From Nitrospira sp. (lineage in GTDB: Bacteria; Nitrospirota; Thermodesulfovibrionia; Thermodesulfovibrionales; SM23-35), in NCBI GenBank assembly GCA_016873615.1, contig VGWX01000021.1:1-34365 (forward strand): DNA of 34,365 nt. Reading direction: 5' to 3'. Below the pieces are notes generated by a model, which worked only from the letters and a program-made list of their open reading frames with translations, was not told the origin of the DNA and searched no databases. Positions 5,681-32,621 of the stretch are shown in pieces. Position 1 is the stretch's first letter, and every line of letters starts with the position of its first letter. A program made the translations under genes and the position numbers.

Positions 5681-7192
5681 TTATACAGAGAAGGTTTTTT
5701 TGAATGCTGTGATCGCCTCGTTAAGCTTTGCTTTAAGGTCATCATCCAGTGCCTTCTTTTCCATGATCTCTTTTTTCAGCGCCTGTTTTTCAGCCCTGAT
5801 ATATCTCATAAACGCTTCCTCAAAGGCTCTTATTGAATCAACCGGGACATCATCGAGAAAGCCCTGGGTCCCTGCATAAATAACAATGATCTGATCATCA
5901 ACCGACATCGGGACAAATTGGTCCTGCTTCAGAAGCTCGACCATCCTTTTCCCTCTCTCAATCTGCGCGAGTGTTGCCTTATCAAGGTCGGATGCGAACT
6001 GCGCAAATGCAGCAAGCTCTCTGTACTGTGCAAGGTCAAGCCTGAGCATACCTGCAACCTGCTTCATGGCTTTGATCTGGGCAGCGCCGCCGACGCGGCT
6101 GACTGAAAGACCGGCGTTAACAGCAGGTCTTACACCGGCGTAGAAGAGTTCGGGCTCAAGATAGATCTGACCGTCTGTGATGGAAATAACGTTTGTCGGG
6201 ATATAACCGGAAACGTCACCGGCCTGTGTCTCGATAACCGGAATTGCCGTAAGGGATCCGGCGCCCATCGCATCGCTCATTTTTGCTGCTCTTTCGAGTA
6301 GCCTTGAATGGAGATAGAAGACGTCACCGGGATACGCCTCACGTGAAGGAGGACGCCTCAGGATCAGGGAAAGCTGTCTGTATGCCTGAGCCTGTTTGGT
6401 AAGGTCATCATATGCAATAAAAGCAGCCTTGCCGTTATCCCTGAAATATTCACCCATTGTACAACCAACATATGGCGCTATGTATTGCATTGGCGCGGGT
6501 TCACTCGCTGTTGCGACAACAACGATTGTGTGTTCCATGGCGCCCATCTGTTCAAGTTTCTGAACTGTATTAACAACAGCCGGCCTTCTCTGTCCGACTG
6601 CCACATATACGCATGTAACATCACCGCCTTTTTGATTGATGATGGTATCAATAAGAATGGCTGTTTTTCCGATCTGACGGTCGCCGATAACAAGCTCCCT
6701 CTGACCTCTTCCGATCGGGATCATGGCATCCACTGCCTTGACCCCTGTCTGGAGCGGTTCATGGACAGGCTTCCTCTTGATGATACCAGGGGCAACGACT
6801 TCGACCCTTCTTGTCTGTTTTGCGTTAATCGGGCCTTTCCCGTCTATAGGCTGTCCGATTGCATTGACAACCCTTCCCCTCAATTCCTCTCCAACCGGGA
6901 CTGACATAACCTTTCCGGTGCGTTTAACAATATCGCCTTCCCTGACAAGCTTGTCCTCACCAAAGAGAACAGCGCCAACTGATTCATCTTCAAGGTTCAG
7001 GGCCATACCGAAAACACCGTTCGGGAACTCAAGCAGTTCCATGGCCATGCAATTGTCAAGGCCATAAACCTTTGCAACACCGTCACCAATATATGTGACA
7101 GTGCCGATCTCACTGACATCAACCTTCTTCTCGAAATCTGTTATTTGCTTCTTTAGAAGTTCACTTATTTCTTCTGTCTTAATTTCTGCCAT
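5681..7192 (-). CDS. atpA: ATP synthase F1 alpha subunit
   Basis: Non-catalytic nucleotide-binding alpha subunit, 503 aa. The Walker A motif GDRQIGKTA is at residues 170-178. The alpha signature [17 protein letters not shown] lies in the C-terminal half, including the conserved Arg that completes the catalytic site of beta. The N-terminal segment before residue 30 would bind the delta subunit at the top of F1. It begins 4 nt after atpH, indicating tight coupling in the operon. Length is typical for the family and no break is seen. Confidence 0.97.
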
Positions 7193-12282: not shown

Positions 12283-13163
<881 letters not shown>

Positions 13164-16579: not shown

Positions 16580-16655
16580 GGGCCGCTAGCTCAGTTGGTA
16601 GAGCAACGCCCTTTTAAGGCGTGGGTCGTTGGTTCGAATCCAACGCGGCTCACCA
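16580..16655 (+). tRNA. tRNA-Lys (anticodon TTT)
   Basis: 76 nt with encoded CCA. The acceptor stem GGGCCGC pairs with GCGGCTC, with one G-T pair. The anticodon stem ACGCC/GGCGT encloses the loop CTTTTAA, giving TTT. The T arm GTTGG-TTCGAAT-CCAAC is perfect. It is four nt upstream of tRNA-Glu, so the two are likely one transcript. Confidence 0.97.
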
Positions 16656-16659
16656 GAGC

Positions 16660-16737
16660 GTCCCCATCGTCTAGCCCGGCCTAGGACATTGCCCTTTCAA
16701 GGCAGTAACACGGGTTCAAATCCCGTTGGGGACGCCA
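16660..16737 (+). tRNA. tRNA-Glu (anticodon TTC)
   Basis: 78 nt with encoded CCA. The acceptor GTCCCCA pairs with TGGGGAC, with discriminator G. The anticodon loop CTTTCAA gives TTC. The T arm is ACGGG-TTCAAAT-CCCGT. Its 3' end, from the last base of the T arm through CCA and 5 nt beyond (16726-16742), is repeated exactly at 17726-17742, the usual sign of an integration target. Confidence 0.97.
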
Positions 16738-16929
16738 ATTTTTTATCTTACTTTCACATCATATAATCCAACTATTCTTCAATAGCAAAATTCCTACAGC
16801 TTGAAGACCCAGGGGATGTCCTGCAAAAAATCTTTCATAGATGTTTTTATCCCAAATTTGTTTCGGTATAATGTGCGGGGTACTTCTGGGGCCGGGTAAG
16901 AATGGAAAAGAGGATCTATGCTTTCAGTT

Positions 16930-17292
16930 TCATTTCTTTTTTTTCTTCGATTCCTTCAGATCGCTTAATATTTTCGTAATGGCAGGTTCAATAGCAGGCA
17001 ACTCTTTCTTGACGACCAACCAGACCACTTTGTAATTGATGCCGAAATAGAAATGCGTGATCTTGTCTCTCATCCTAGCCATTTCGGTCCAGGGAAGGTC
17101 CTTGTATTTTACCTTTATCTCCTTGGGTATGTTCTTGGAGGCTTCGCCGATATTCTCTATCTTGAATGCGACAGCGCTTCTGGTCTTCTCATCGGCAAGA
17201 AAATCCTTTCGCTTCATTGAGCCAACGAACTCTTTTATATACTGTATCGCGTCATAGATGTCCTGAATGAAGAATTTCCATTCCCGCGTCAT
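16930..17292 (-). CDS. hepT: HepT-like HEPN toxin
   Basis: A 120-aa all-helical HEPN (DUF86/HepT) protein, the toxin half of a HEPN-MNT module. The signature RX4HXY is intact: R75, H80, Y82 (RDKITHFY). In characterised systems this motif forms the RNase site, and its tyrosine is AMPylated by the partner nucleotidyltransferase, which neutralises the toxin. It overlaps the mntA stop by 4 nt. The C-terminus ends in a run of lysines (ESKKKKK). The pair sits inside a segment bounded by a tRNA-Glu 3' duplication, consistent with lateral acquisition. Confidence 0.85.
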   Translation of the reverse strand: MTREWKFFIQDIYDAIQYIKEFVGSMKRKDFLADEKTRSAVAFKIENIGEASKNIPKEIKVKYKDLPWTEMARMRDKITHFYFGINYKVVWLVVKKELPAIEPAITKILSDLKESKKKKK

Positions 17293-17597
17293 ATATATAC
17301 GACCTCTTTCAGTATGCCTTTCTTGAGCTCAGGCCGAATGCCGCTTTTTATAACCACATCGACTTTTTTTCTGAGAAGCTTCTCAAGATATATTTCCATC
17401 TCGATCAACCTGAGAAGGCCGGGGATATTTCTCGGTTCGAATTCAACAAGGATGTCAATATCGCTTCTCTTTTTCTGCTCTCCGCGCACAAAAGACCCAA
17501 AGATACCAATCTCGTTCACCCGGTATTTCCGGCTTACCTCTGCCTTGTGCTCTTTGAGGATTTTCTTCACTTCTTCAAGTGTGCCGGCTCTTTTCAT
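17289..17597 (-). CDS. mntA: MntA-like minimal nucleotidyltransferase antitoxin
   Basis: A 102-aa minimal nucleotidyltransferase. The catalytic motif GSX10DXD is complete: G34, S35, D46, D48 (GSFVRGEQKKRSDIDI). A third acidic residue is likely within KVDVVI. In studied HEPN-MNT pairs this protein transfers AMP to the HepT tyrosine. It is upstream of hepT with a 4-nt overlap. No Shine-Dalgarno is seen; instead TACAAT (17609-17604 on the minus strand) lies 6 nt before the ATG, suggesting a leaderless transcript. Part of that upstream region is an imperfect copy of sequence at 18416-18475. Confidence 0.85.
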   Translation of the reverse strand: MKRAGTLEEVKKILKEHKAEVSRKYRVNEIGIFGSFVRGEQKKRSDIDILVEFEPRNIPGLLRLIEMEIYLEKLLRKKVDVVIKSGIRPELKKGILKEVVYI

Positions 17598-17608
17598 AGG
17601 TATATTGT

Positions 17609-17667
17609 AGCAATTTTGTGAGGGGTTTTATATGAATTTCTTTCTCGGAGGAAAAAATTAACAGGAC
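17609..17667. repeat. Imperfect ~60-bp repeat, copy A (upstream of mntA)
   Basis: Aligns with 18416-18475 at roughly four fifths of positions by eye with one 1-nt gap. The shared core includes GGGGTTTTATAT and AATTTCTTTC. The two copies are direct repeats about 810 bp apart and bracket hicBA. Confidence 0.65.
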
Positions 17668-17725
17668 ACAGCCCGCCCGAGGCGGGTAAAGCAATCCCTT
17701 AACGGCCTTGTTCGCCTATGGCGAA

Positions 17726-17742
17726 TTGGGGACGCCAATTTT
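17726..17742. repeat. Duplicate of the tRNA-Glu 3' end (att-like)
   Basis: An exact 17-nt copy of 16726-16742, ending 5 nt past the CCA. The rest of the tRNA is not present here, so this is not a second tRNA gene. Confidence 0.75.
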
Positions 17743-17792
17743 ATTTTTTAATCAGGGAGTGACCTCCTTTCTTTCGAGCGTGTCCTCTTATA

Positions 17793-17822
17793 TTGCCTTC
17801 TCTATCTAATGACAGGTAAAAT
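17793..17822 (+). promoter_or_regulatory. Possible promoter of hicBA
   Basis: TTGCCT (17793-17798), 18-nt spacer, TAAAAT (17817-17822), about 40 nt before hicB. The spacing is one nt longer than ideal. Confidence 0.35.
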
Positions 17823-17862
17823 GAAAGTCAAAGATATATAGATTTAAAGGAGGTGATAAATC

Positions 17863-18066
17863 ATGTTAAGACATTTCACACTTGAATATTGGATAGATGA
17901 GGGATGGTATGTGGGTCGGATAAAAGAAGTTCCTGGCGTCTTCAGTCAGGGTGAAACGCTTGATGAATTAGAGAAAAACATCCGTGAGGCTTATAAACTG
18001 ATGACGGAAGAGGAAGAGCCGGTTTGGACTTCTGTTCAGCAAAAGGAAATTGAGGTCGAAGTGTGA
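17863..18066 (+). CDS. hicB: HicB-family antitoxin
   Basis: A 67-aa protein with the HicB fold signature: a strand pair followed by GRIKEVPGVFSQGETLDELEKNI and a helix (REAYKLM). HicB antitoxins block HicA by occupying its RNase site. No C-terminal DNA-binding domain is present, so this is the short form, and autoregulation may need another factor. The ribosome-binding site is excellent: AAAGGAGGTGA (17846-17856), 6 nt before the ATG. The gene overlaps hicA by 4 nt, with the antitoxin first. Confidence 0.85.
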   Translation: MLRHFTLEYWIDEGWYVGRIKEVPGVFSQGETLDELEKNIREAYKLMTEEEEPVWTSVQQKEIEVEV

Positions 18067-18239
18067 AACGGCAGGAGTTCATCAAGGAACTGTCTGCAGC
18101 AGGATGTTACCTAAAACGGCACGGGGCAAATCATGATATCTATGTAAATCAAAAGAACGGCAGAAAAGCCCCTGTTCCCCGCCATTCAGAAATCAAAGAC
18201 AGCCTTTGCATGCTTATAAGAAAACAGCTCGGGATATAA
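18063..18239 (+). CDS. hicA: HicA-family mRNA interferase toxin
   Basis: A 58-aa protein opening with GTG inside the hicB end (GTGTGA overlap). It reads MKRQEFIKELSAAGCYLKRH, then GANHDIYVN and APVPRHSEIK. This is the HicA double-stranded-RNA-binding-like fold, with the conserved His in the G-x-x-H-D-x-Y segment acting in RNA cleavage. It ends QLGI, as many HicA proteins do. Length is typical. The reading frame is intact, so the pair may be functional. Confidence 0.85.
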   Translation: MKRQEFIKELSAAGCYLKRHGANHDIYVNQKNGRKAPVPRHSEIKDSLCMLIRKQLGI

Positions 18240-18551
18240 AAAACTATCTATCTTCATTAAATGTCTTAAACTGTGGGGTATGCAGAACAATATTGCAATA
18301 CTTTTTATGACGCCTTCTGCTCTGCTTCCATTGGTTTTCTACCTGTAAACAGTCGGGCAATTATAAAATATGATATTGCAAGACCTGACCCTTTTGTTTT
18401 TTTGTTTAAGCCGGCAGCAATTTTATAAGGGGTTTTATATAAATTTCTTTCCTGGTGGGAAAAACGTGGCAGGACTTATAGACTTAATTTTACTTTTCTC
18501 TTTCTTCGATAACACTCTTGGAAAGAGAACTGTATAAGTTATTTTTTGCGA
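18240..18551. other. Intergenic stretch without a gene
   Basis: About 310 nt between hicA and the DUF3187 gene. I see no ORF with coding character. The only notable content is the second imperfect ~60-bp repeat (18416-18475) and AT-rich sequence with a T-run near 18391-18405. Confidence 0.6.
18416..18475. repeat. Imperfect ~60-bp repeat, copy B
   Basis: Partner of 17609-17667. Here no gene starts on the minus strand just downstream, so if the repeat is a promoter region this copy has lost its gene. Confidence 0.65.
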
Positions 18552-18580
18552 TTGACTTCAGAGCCTTCCTCTGCTAATTT
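18552..18580 (+). promoter_or_regulatory. Possible promoter of the DUF3187 gene
   Basis: TTGACT (18552-18557), 17-nt spacer, TAATTT (18575-18580). The ATG follows after 9 nt and no Shine-Dalgarno is present, which fits a leaderless message. Confidence 0.4.
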
Positions 18581-18589
18581 AATCCCGCA

Positions 18590-19555
18590 ATGAAGAAAAT
18601 TATCATATTACCTCTTATGCTGCTCATTTTTTCTTTTCATTCATCAGCATCATATGGATTTGATGGTCCTTTACAGGTAAGAAACCAATTCCCTTTATTC
18701 CTTTATCTCAATATTCCTTATTTAGAGTCAGCATCTGTTGAGAATTCGTTTTCTGCCGGTCTTTCATATTCAAGCCTCAACCTTGTCGAGAGTTCATCTG
18801 AATGGGATATCGGGCTTGATGTGGAGATTACGGAGTTTGATCTCAGGTTCAAAAAAAACATCAGGGATTTTGTTGAACTCGGGATTGAATTGCCGATCCT
18901 CAGTTTCAGTTCAGGTATTATGGATGGCTTTTTAAATACCTATCACGATGCATTCGGCCTTCCTGATTACGGCAGAAGCAACAGACCGGATAATGAGTTC
19001 CTCTATGAAGCGAGAAGAAACGGGGATCTTGTTGTAAAAGGGAGAAACGGGCATATCGGGATTGGCGATATAAGATTAACTTTCAAAAAGCCTCTGCTGA
19101 ACAGGGACCCTGCTATCAGCATTAAAGGTAATATCGAACTGCCGACAGGAGATGCAAAGGCAGGATTTGGGAACGGCAGCATTGATGCAGGGATCTCTGT
19201 GCTGATGGACAAAAAGCTGAGTGAATGCTTTAAATCTTATCTGAATATCGGCGCGGTATTCCCCGGCAATTTGAGAGGGCATGAAGAAATAAACCTCAGG
19301 GAATTTTTTTACGGCGGAGCAGCCATTGAGGCTTCCTTCTGGAAAAACATCAGCCTTATCGGCCAGGTGTTTATCCAGGGATCTCCTTTCCCAAAAACAG
19401 ATATTTCCTCAATCGACAGGGTGGCTGTACTTCTTTCCCTTGGAGGAAGATATTCTTACGGGAATAACAATTTTGAGTTTTCTTTGACTGAGGATCCGAA
19501 CACCTCCGGAGCGCCTGATTTCACTCTGAATTTTTCTTTTAAAAGAATATTTTGA
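18590..19555 (+). CDS. DUF3187-family outer-membrane-like protein
   Basis: A 321-aa exported protein. Residues 1-23 are a signal peptide (KKIIILPLMLLIFSFHSSAS). The mature protein opens with GPLQVRNQFPLFL, the characteristic start of DUF3187 proteins, and consists of alternating hydrophobic/polar strands ending in an aromatic residue (LNFSFKRIF), typical of an outer-membrane beta-barrel. This implies a diderm cell. Function of the family is unknown. The gene appears monocistronic, and no Shine-Dalgarno precedes the ATG. Confidence 0.8.
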   Translation: MKKIIILPLMLLIFSFHSSASYGFDGPLQVRNQFPLFLYLNIPYLESASVENSFSAGLSYSSLNLVESSSEWDIGLDVEITEFDLRFKKNIRDFVELGIELPILSFSSGIMDGFLNTYHDAFGLPDYGRSNRPDNEFLYEARRNGDLVVKGRNGHIGIGDIRLTFKKPLLNRDPAISIKGNIELPTGDAKAGFGNGSIDAGISVLMDKKLSECFKSYLNIGAVFPGNLRGHEEINLREFFYGGAAIEASFWKNISLIGQVFIQGSPFPKTDISSIDRVAVLLSLGGRYSYGNNNFEFSLTEDPNTSGAPDFTLNFSFKRIF

Positions 19556-31588: not shown

Positions 31589-32621
31589 ATGAATAAAAAC
31601 AGACCTAAGATAGGAAGCAATATAACGGTAGAACCAATCCGATCTCTTCAGGATATTAAACGTATTAAAACCCTTCTTGCAGAGAACCCTCGAGATTTTG
31701 CTATTTTTGTTTTGGGGATAAATACTAATCTTCGGGCAAACGATATCATTAAGATAACAGTTGGACAGGTTAAACATTTAGTTGCCGGAGATAATCTTAT
31801 CTTGAGGGAAGAAAAAACAGATGAGATAAGACGCATAACAATTAACAAAGCGGCATATGAAGCCATCCAAAATTTGCTCTCTGCCATTCAGGATAAAAAA
31901 GACGATGCCCCTCTTTTTCAAAGTAGAAAGGGGCACAAACCACTTGGGATTTCACATCTAAATCATCTTGTAAAAAAATGGTGTTCTGCGATACGGTTGA
32001 AAGGTAACTATGGAGGCCCTACTCTACGTAAAACGTTTGGATATATCCAATTCATTCACTTTAAAACAGATATTCTTACGCTTATGGAGAATGTTTAACC
32101 ACCCATCACCTAAAGTAACTCTTTCTTATCTGAGTATAACTGTTGAAGAATTTACTTCTCTTATGCTCAACCACTCATCACCTAAACAAGCGCTTTCGCA
32201 TATAGGAATTCCGAACGCCTCGTCGTTAGCAAGACAGGCAGTAGGATCGACTGAAGAAAAAACCGAGCTAATAAGAACAAACTTCAGAAACCGTATGAAT
32301 CATATATATCAGGAATATAATCAATCTCGTATATGGCTTAATGTTGTTAAAGCAGTGATAGAGCGTGACAAGAAAACCTGTCAAGACTGTGGTACCCAAC
32401 CCAAAATAGGGATAGCGCATCACACCAGCTACCAAAACTGGGCGAAAGGAAATAATGAAGAAATTAGAGACTGTGTTTTTTTGTGCAAGAAGTGCCATAA
32501 TGCTCGGCATAGAAATAATAGAGATGAACCAACCCCATTTTGGGCTTCAAGAAATTATGACCCTGACTTAGACAAGATAGATGAGGGAGACGTTGTGAAG
32601 TTGTTAATGCAAGAAATATAA
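31589..32621 (+). pseudogene. Frameshifted tyrosine recombinase that runs into an HNH nuclease domain
   Basis: The first frame (31589-32098, 169 aa) is a tyrosine recombinase catalytic domain: R49 in NTNLRANDIIKITVGQV, then PTLRKTFGY, where Pro replaces the usual His of HxxR. The frame stops early. An extra G at 32086-32087 explains this: skipping it joins LM to RMFNHPSPKVTLSYLSI, carrying the NH and nucleophile Tyr motifs, in the frame covering 32010-32621. The box is then repeated as LMLNHSSPKQALSHIGI. The same frame continues to an HNH-like zinc domain: CQDCG, AHHTSYQNW, FLCKKCHNARH. Whether this is one fused gene or a neighbour HNH gene read through is unclear. Confidence 0.6.

Follow-up and report, generated by a model that had tools for sequence, protein, structure and literature searches.

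Cis-mobilizable elements (CIMEs) are decayed ICEs or IMEs that have kept their att sites (PMC5704250), and the classical CIMEs are 1.2-13 kb in length (PMC7563491). Toxin-antitoxin (TA) genes are found on composite islands as well: hipAB is reported to stabilise a 48-kb composite island at a tRNA-Trp gene of Shewanella (PMC8978831). The type VII TA systems carry a two-motif signature, RX4HXY in HepT and GSX10DXD in MntA (PMC7641770). In the present study we analysed a 34,365-nt stretch of DNA (the window) in which about one kb containing such a TA pair lies between a tRNA-Glu gene and a copy of the tail of that gene. This stretch is probably the worn remains of mobile DNA, at a site where foreign genes are frequently acquired in this bacterial group. 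The source genome (G000) is an assembly of 216 contigs. The features of the locus are as follows.

16580..16655, + strand: tRNA-Lys (TTT), identified by ARAGORN
16660..16737, + strand: tRNA-Glu (TTC), identified by ARAGORN, an integration hotspot target; the same gene bears an integrase-bearing island in G010 and inserts flanked by direct repeats (DR) in G002 and G057
16726..16742, + strand: T, the left copy of a 17-bp repeat, attL-like; the last 12 bp of tRNA-Glu plus ATTTT
16738..16929: non-coding DNA from tRNA-Glu to hepT, about 90% identical to G013 and absent from the other genomes of the order that were searched
16930..17292, - strand: hepT, predicted HEPN RNase toxin (PF01934, E 3.4e-24), with RX4HXY as RDKITHFY
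17289..17597, - strand: mntA, predicted nucleotidyltransferase antitoxin (PF01909, E 4.3e-19), with GSX10DXD as GSFVRGEQKKRSDID
17609..17657, + strand: P1, copy 1 of a 49-bp repeat, the upstream (promoter) region of mntA, kept upstream of mntA in other genomes
17671..17725: two-hairpin unit, CCCGCC-CGA-GGCGGG ... TTCGCC-TAT-GGCGAA, left of T′
17726..17742, + strand: T′, the right copy of the 17-bp repeat, a solitary tRNA-Glu 3′ end without a tRNA body, fossil attR-like
17863..18066, + strand: hicB-like antitoxin (PF21748 above cut-off, PF15919 below)
18063..18239, + strand: hicA toxin (PF07927, E 3.7e-11)
18366..18403, - strand: piece of a dispersed repeat, GCAAGACCTGACCC..., which in G016 adjoins a Y1/RAYT-like transposase ORF
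18416..18464, + strand: P2, copy 2 of the 49-bp repeat
18465..18529, - strand: 3′ part of a truncated vapB-like antitoxin gene; in G013 it adjoins P
18538..18560: right boundary of the inserted DNA, where ATTTTTTGCGATTGACTTCA resumes the flank that lies directly after tRNA-Glu in G008 and after the right tRNA copy in G002
18590..19555, + strand: DUF3187 gene, which comes directly after tRNA-Glu in G008, where the site is empty

An initial annotation of this DNA had pointed to a 17-bp tRNA-Glu 3′ sequence duplicated with a 1000-bp offset, and both exact copies of the 17-mer TTGGGGACGCCAATTTT were located, at 16726-16742 and 17726-17742, with a spacing of exactly 1000. The 17-mer consists of the final 12 bp of tRNA-Glu(TTC), including CCA, and 5 bp past the gene end. 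Only these two exact copies are present in the whole 2.9-Mb genome, the next best match having 2 mismatches, and a widely scattered sequence is thus ruled out. Using a first-order Markov model, the number of copies of the 17-mer expected by chance is about 8e-4 in the genome, and 3e-7 in the 2 kb that follow on the same strand. No other exact 17-mer repeat occurs in the window except two short local tandem stretches. The direct repeat T-T′ is derived from the tRNA and non-random. A terminator-like structure arising by chance was considered as an alternative, since T′ itself can be drawn as a small hairpin (AATTGG-GGACG-CCAATT) followed by a T-rich stretch. Against the copy numbers expected by chance, and with T′ not being picked up by a terminator scan and placed ahead of the two flanking operons, a position in which a terminator is not expected, the probability of such a coincidence is negligible. 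A short tandem repeat of AGAGTTG is also present in the window at 12701-12735, inside dapF.

The DNA enclosed by T and T′ contains hepT and mntA and no integrase, in agreement with the initial annotation, and the two hairpins that it had placed next to the right copy are found immediately left of T′. A second TA pair, hicB/hicA (17863-18239), follows directly after T′, and a relative of hicBA with 90% identity is found at an unrelated location in G015. From tRNA-Glu to DUF3187 the gene content is limited to hepT, mntA, hicB, hicA and the vapB fragment, with no relaxase or conjugation genes, and a search of 16738-18590 detected neither an integrase next to tRNA-Glu nor an integrase relic. The 190 bp between tRNA-Glu and hepT were considered as a relic of an integrase or another gene, and they have no constrained shared frame and no match beyond G013. 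A second direct repeat, P1/P2 (17609-17657 and 18416-18464; 49 bp, 86%), is interlocked with T/T′ in the order T-P1-T′-P2. T′ is short, and 0.8 kb of inserted DNA separates it from the true right edge (about 18540), at which a copy of tRNA-Glu is absent.

Three further observations concern other sequences in the window. The GCAAGACCTGACCC repeat (18366-18403) is dispersed in many genomes of the order and lies once directly beside a Y1/RAYT-like transposase ORF (L136), a label that comes from reading the translation and not from profile matching. Upstream of hicB, a leader of about 40 bp (17792-17845) recurs in G010, G011, G005 and G019, in several of them before genes other than hicB. At 31589-32621, near the right contig end, a short integrase-like ORF (PF00589, 1.8e-8) is followed by an HNH-like ORF.

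HepT is an RNase and MntA its AMP-transferring partner, and HicA is paired with HicB. The products of both pairs in the window were compared with the profiles of these families. HepT scores 85.3 bits against PF01934 (cut-off 23.5) and MntA 69.1 bits against PF01909 (cut-off 21); the RX4HXY and GSX10DXD motifs are both present and the genes overlap by 4 bp. With 31.2 and 43.8 bits, the pair misses the NCBIfam equivalog cut-offs of 60. HicA scores 43.4 bits against PF07927 (cut-off 27), and its adjacent HicB-like partner passes PF21748 and fails PF15919. The dN/dS values are 0.05-0.07 for hepT, 0.08-0.20 for mntA, 0.01 for hicB (versus G015) and 0.02 for hicA. All four TA genes are under purifying selection. 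From what is known of these families, the pairs are most likely retained as addiction or defence modules through which the region becomes costly to lose.

We also compared the same tRNA-Glu site in related genomes, with integrases identified by Pfam searches. An empty site, which the initial annotation had proposed to look for, exists in G008, where tRNA-Glu is followed 50-60 bp later by the gene equivalent to DUF3187 of the window. The use of a tRNA 3′ end by a tyrosine integrase, which the initial annotation had called typical of these enzymes, is seen at this tRNA in G010, a genome of the same family: a gene for a 356-aa tyrosine integrase (PF00589, 2.7e-36) ends 7 bp after the CCA of tRNA-Glu, an HTH_17 excisionase-like ORF is also present, and a 25-bp partial copy of tRNA-Glu, cut by an assembly gap, lies 7.2 kb downstream. 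In G014, another genome of the family, an integrase fragment is found about 0.6 kb past tRNA-Glu. G002 contains a 1.9-kb insert without an integrase and with an RHH antitoxin-like ORF. Its right tRNA copy, GGGACGCCAAT, adjoins the conserved DUF3187 promoter flank, and the end of the insert, GGGACGCCAATTTTTTC, is positioned immediately before that flank as expected of attR; this copy is 11 bp only, and the attR assignment rests on position and flank, not length. The insert of G057 is 2.8 kb long and lacks an integrase; its DR measures about 50 bp, and it contains an IS3-type element and a kinase fragment. Judging from these relatives, the tRNA-Glu gene is a real insertion hotspot.

In G017 and G003 a large helicase-like gene is found at tRNA-Glu, and in G017 hepT-mntA comes after it. 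This gene, encoding 924-959 aa with a UvrD-like core and an ankyrin repeat, adjoins tRNA-Glu in two genera (L103:3338-6217; G003:C142) and is possibly island cargo or a defence gene.

In the clear islands (G010, G057 and the tRNA-Glu(CTC) islands) the tRNA copies start in the anticodon loop. Since T′ contains only 12 bp of the tRNA, it may be eroded, or it may be the product of another recombinase or process. Solitary copies of the other tRNA-Glu gene were seen as well. A 44-bp copy of the 3′ half of tRNA-Glu(CTC) is present in the source genome near a contig end (G000:C4:57469-57513, L240), and such copies also occur in G147 and in G144 (L253 near 5334, L254 near 1681), with a common left arm, GTATTTTCAAGC. 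The copies sharing GTATTTTCAAGC are, that is, putative right ends of a second family of tRNA-Glu islands with a crossover in the anticodon loop.

The most informative relative is G013, which belongs to another genus. On aligning the window with G013, the identity rises abruptly at the end of the tRNA, from about 70% to 90%: in 60-bp bins the aconitase gene gives 0.52-0.85 and the stretch from the tRNAs through hepT-mntA gives 0.82-0.98, the latter including 190 bp of non-coding DNA. The aconitase gene is saturated at synonymous sites (pS 0.76), and dS is 0.70 for hepT and 0.22 for mntA. Furthermore, the aconitase of the window is closer to those of G008 and G017 (85-86% aa) than to that of G013 (76%), yet the hepT-mntA DNA is closer to G013 (90% against 84%). 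From these contrasts in identity, dS and aconitase, it follows that the hepT-mntA block passed from one lineage to another, and that its left edge was the end of tRNA-Glu. The comparison thus shows that the block and its non-coding flank were horizontally transferred to the same tRNA in the window lineage and in G013. No instance of the same DNA was found on phages, plasmids or viral contigs.

The G013 locus also indicates which unit was transferred. hepT and mntA are present in G013, T′ and hicBA are absent, and the P repeat runs directly into a vapB-like gene whose last codons correspond to window positions 18465-18529, which in the window lie beyond hicBA. Because G013 is without T′ and hicBA and P joins vapB, the transferred block was tRNA-hepT-mntA-P-vapB′, not the T-T′ kilobase, and T′ belongs to a later or a deleted segment. 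The junction is marked by the 49-bp repeat, in whose left half G013 corresponds to P1 and in whose right half it corresponds to P2. The G013 junction sequence ACGCCGAT was also considered as an eroded attR; this is ruled out, as it encodes GIGVS of the vapB antitoxin. The spacing of exactly 1000 bp is a coincidence without meaning, because indels set the homologous locus of G013 apart and the right copy is missing there.

These results bear directly on the suggestion of the initial annotation that the 1000-bp T-T′ segment forms a TA element of its own, minimal and without an integrase, whose excision and integration at tRNA-Glu would depend on an integrase supplied from elsewhere (in trans). 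The TA pair and the hairpins are indeed enclosed by direct tRNA 3′ repeats, and other small integrase-less inserts bounded by tRNA sequence exist at tRNA-Glu in G002 and G057. The source genome encodes at least 10 integrase-like ORFs, one of them 42% identical over 176 aa to the tRNA-Glu integrase of G010; none is specifically implicated, and no helper dedicated to the 17-bp repeat was identified among them. Against such an element, G013, which alone among the relatives carries this block, lacks T′ and runs on into the vapB fragment, the tRNA-Glu integrases known in this group use the longer anticodon-loop repeat, and a search of the source genome and of 176 genomes of the order did not find the segment at another tRNA gene; an excised form was not observed either. 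The T-T′ segment is not supported as the mobile unit, and we consider a discrete 1-kb element quite unlikely. Of the two outcomes that would have spoken against the initial annotation, neither was encountered: an empty site exists, and the 17-mer is confined to its two copies.

The interlocked repeats could also have arisen by tandem duplication without site-specific recombination, in which T-hepT-mntA-P was duplicated to give T-P1-T′-P2, with hicBA later taking the place of the second hepT-mntA. Such a duplication would yield the observed order, and GCCGGC precedes P2 as it does at the 5′ end of mntA. It should have left traces of the duplicated genes, but no hepT or mntA homology is left between T′ and P2, where the best local alignments are no better than those of shuffled sequences, and the DNA that follows T is absent after T′ beyond about 17-25 bp. 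This origin appears rather unlikely.

The hairpin unit next to T′ was searched for separately. The pattern of a hairpin pair plus spacer occurs at 2 places in the 176 genomes of the order, the window and G147, and in a 396-genome sample of the phylum, which overlapped with the order and did not list G147, it occurs in the window only. An abundant REP-type repeat is thus ruled out. In G147 (G147:C44:7173-7250, L188; match at 7183) the two-hairpin unit is fused to TTCGAATCCCGTTGGGACCGCCA, the 3′ end of tRNA-Glu(CTC). This hairpin-tRNA end is solitary and lies about 0.9 kb downstream of an RHH/PIN (VapBC-like) pair, and no tRNA gene was detected near it in 17 kb of the 17.2-kb contig. The fusion of the hairpins to a tRNA-Glu end in two of two cases is notable, and two cases are too few to define an element. 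They could be read as the terminus of a family of minimal integrase-less elements that target tRNA-Glu genes, carry single TA modules as an exchangeable cargo and depend for their movement on island integrases acting in trans, with members in the window (TTC) and in G147 (CTC); we regard this as very unlikely. The same observation suggests another origin of T′, namely a small mobile hairpin unit that has captured a tRNA-Glu end and is unrelated to integrases, with the block itself having moved by homologous recombination through the conserved tRNA-Lys/tRNA-Glu pair (natural transformation or island exchange). The left edge of the high-identity block does coincide with the nearly identical tRNAs, and the G147 hairpins carry the end of the other tRNA-Glu on a contig in which no tRNA gene was detected. 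However, T′ matches the neighbouring tRNA-Glu(TTC) together with its 3′ flank including ATTTT, 1 kb away, as for attR, and genuine integrase islands use tRNA-Glu. We consider this combination unlikely.

The explanation that we favour, with somewhat better than even confidence, is that the DNA between 16738 and about 18545 represents a small island, composite and decayed, which occupies the attachment site at tRNA-Glu(TTC) and no longer has its integrase. T′ would be a fossil att site: site-specific integration would have restored the tRNA and left a copy at the far end. Homologous recombination through the 49-bp repeat of the mntA promoter may have joined the part containing T′ and hicBA to a resident hepT-mntA-vapB island, for example by the single-crossover entry at P of a circle carrying T′-hicBA-P-hairpins. 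A single crossover at P predicts the order T-P1-T′-P2, and it also predicts that G013 resembles P1 on the left and P2 on the right. A reciprocal deletion in G013 would fit equally well, so that more than one order of events, entry of a circle in the window lineage or deletion in G013, is compatible with the island. The pieces would be movable only with help, either from an integrase acting in trans, or in cis after accretion of an active island, or else by homologous recombination through the conserved tRNA pair.

The kind of island is already known, and the locus is of some interest as an example. In these uncultured Nitrospirota the tRNA-Glu site gathers small integrase-less inserts, some of them with TA genes, and one such block has crossed genera. 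The site thus offers a concrete place to test whether TA pairs stop the loss of decayed islands, and it is suited to asking whether very small elements can be mobilised in trans by island integrases. Should only the conservative reading hold, the locus is still a well-dissected case of island decay and accretion.

In comparison with described systems, the TA pair resembles the HepT/MntA type VII TA in its Pfam families, overlapping genes and both motifs (PMC7641770), and differs in scoring below the NCBIfam equivalog cut-offs, which points to a divergent member with predicted activity. The Shewanella hipAB island (PMC8978831) is likewise composite, inserted at a tRNA gene and equipped with TA genes; it is far larger at 48 kb, and stabilisation by the TA pairs of the window is putative. 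With the tyrosine-integrase island of G010 the locus shares the target tRNA-Glu, a restored tRNA and a downstream copy of the tRNA 3′ end. Of the marks of a tRNA island with its own integrase, the empty target is found in a relative (G008) and the integrase beside the tRNA is not found here; the window is also without an excisionase, and its repeat is without the anticodon-loop half seen in the G010 and G057 copies. The likeness to CIMEs consists in att-like copies of the 3′ end of a tRNA, the lack of both integrase and transfer genes, a tandem composite structure and a size near the lower end of the published range. The differences are that the att copy of the window is 17 bp only and lies inside the composite rather than at its right edge. 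An intact ICE or IME ancestor was not found, the integrase islands at tRNA-Glu being those of the relatives G010 and G014. In the favoured reading, the island works like a CIME, as an integrase-less, att-flanked and accreted remnant. We do not file it as one, because its right att copy is not at the outer edge and its descent from an ICE or IME is only putative.
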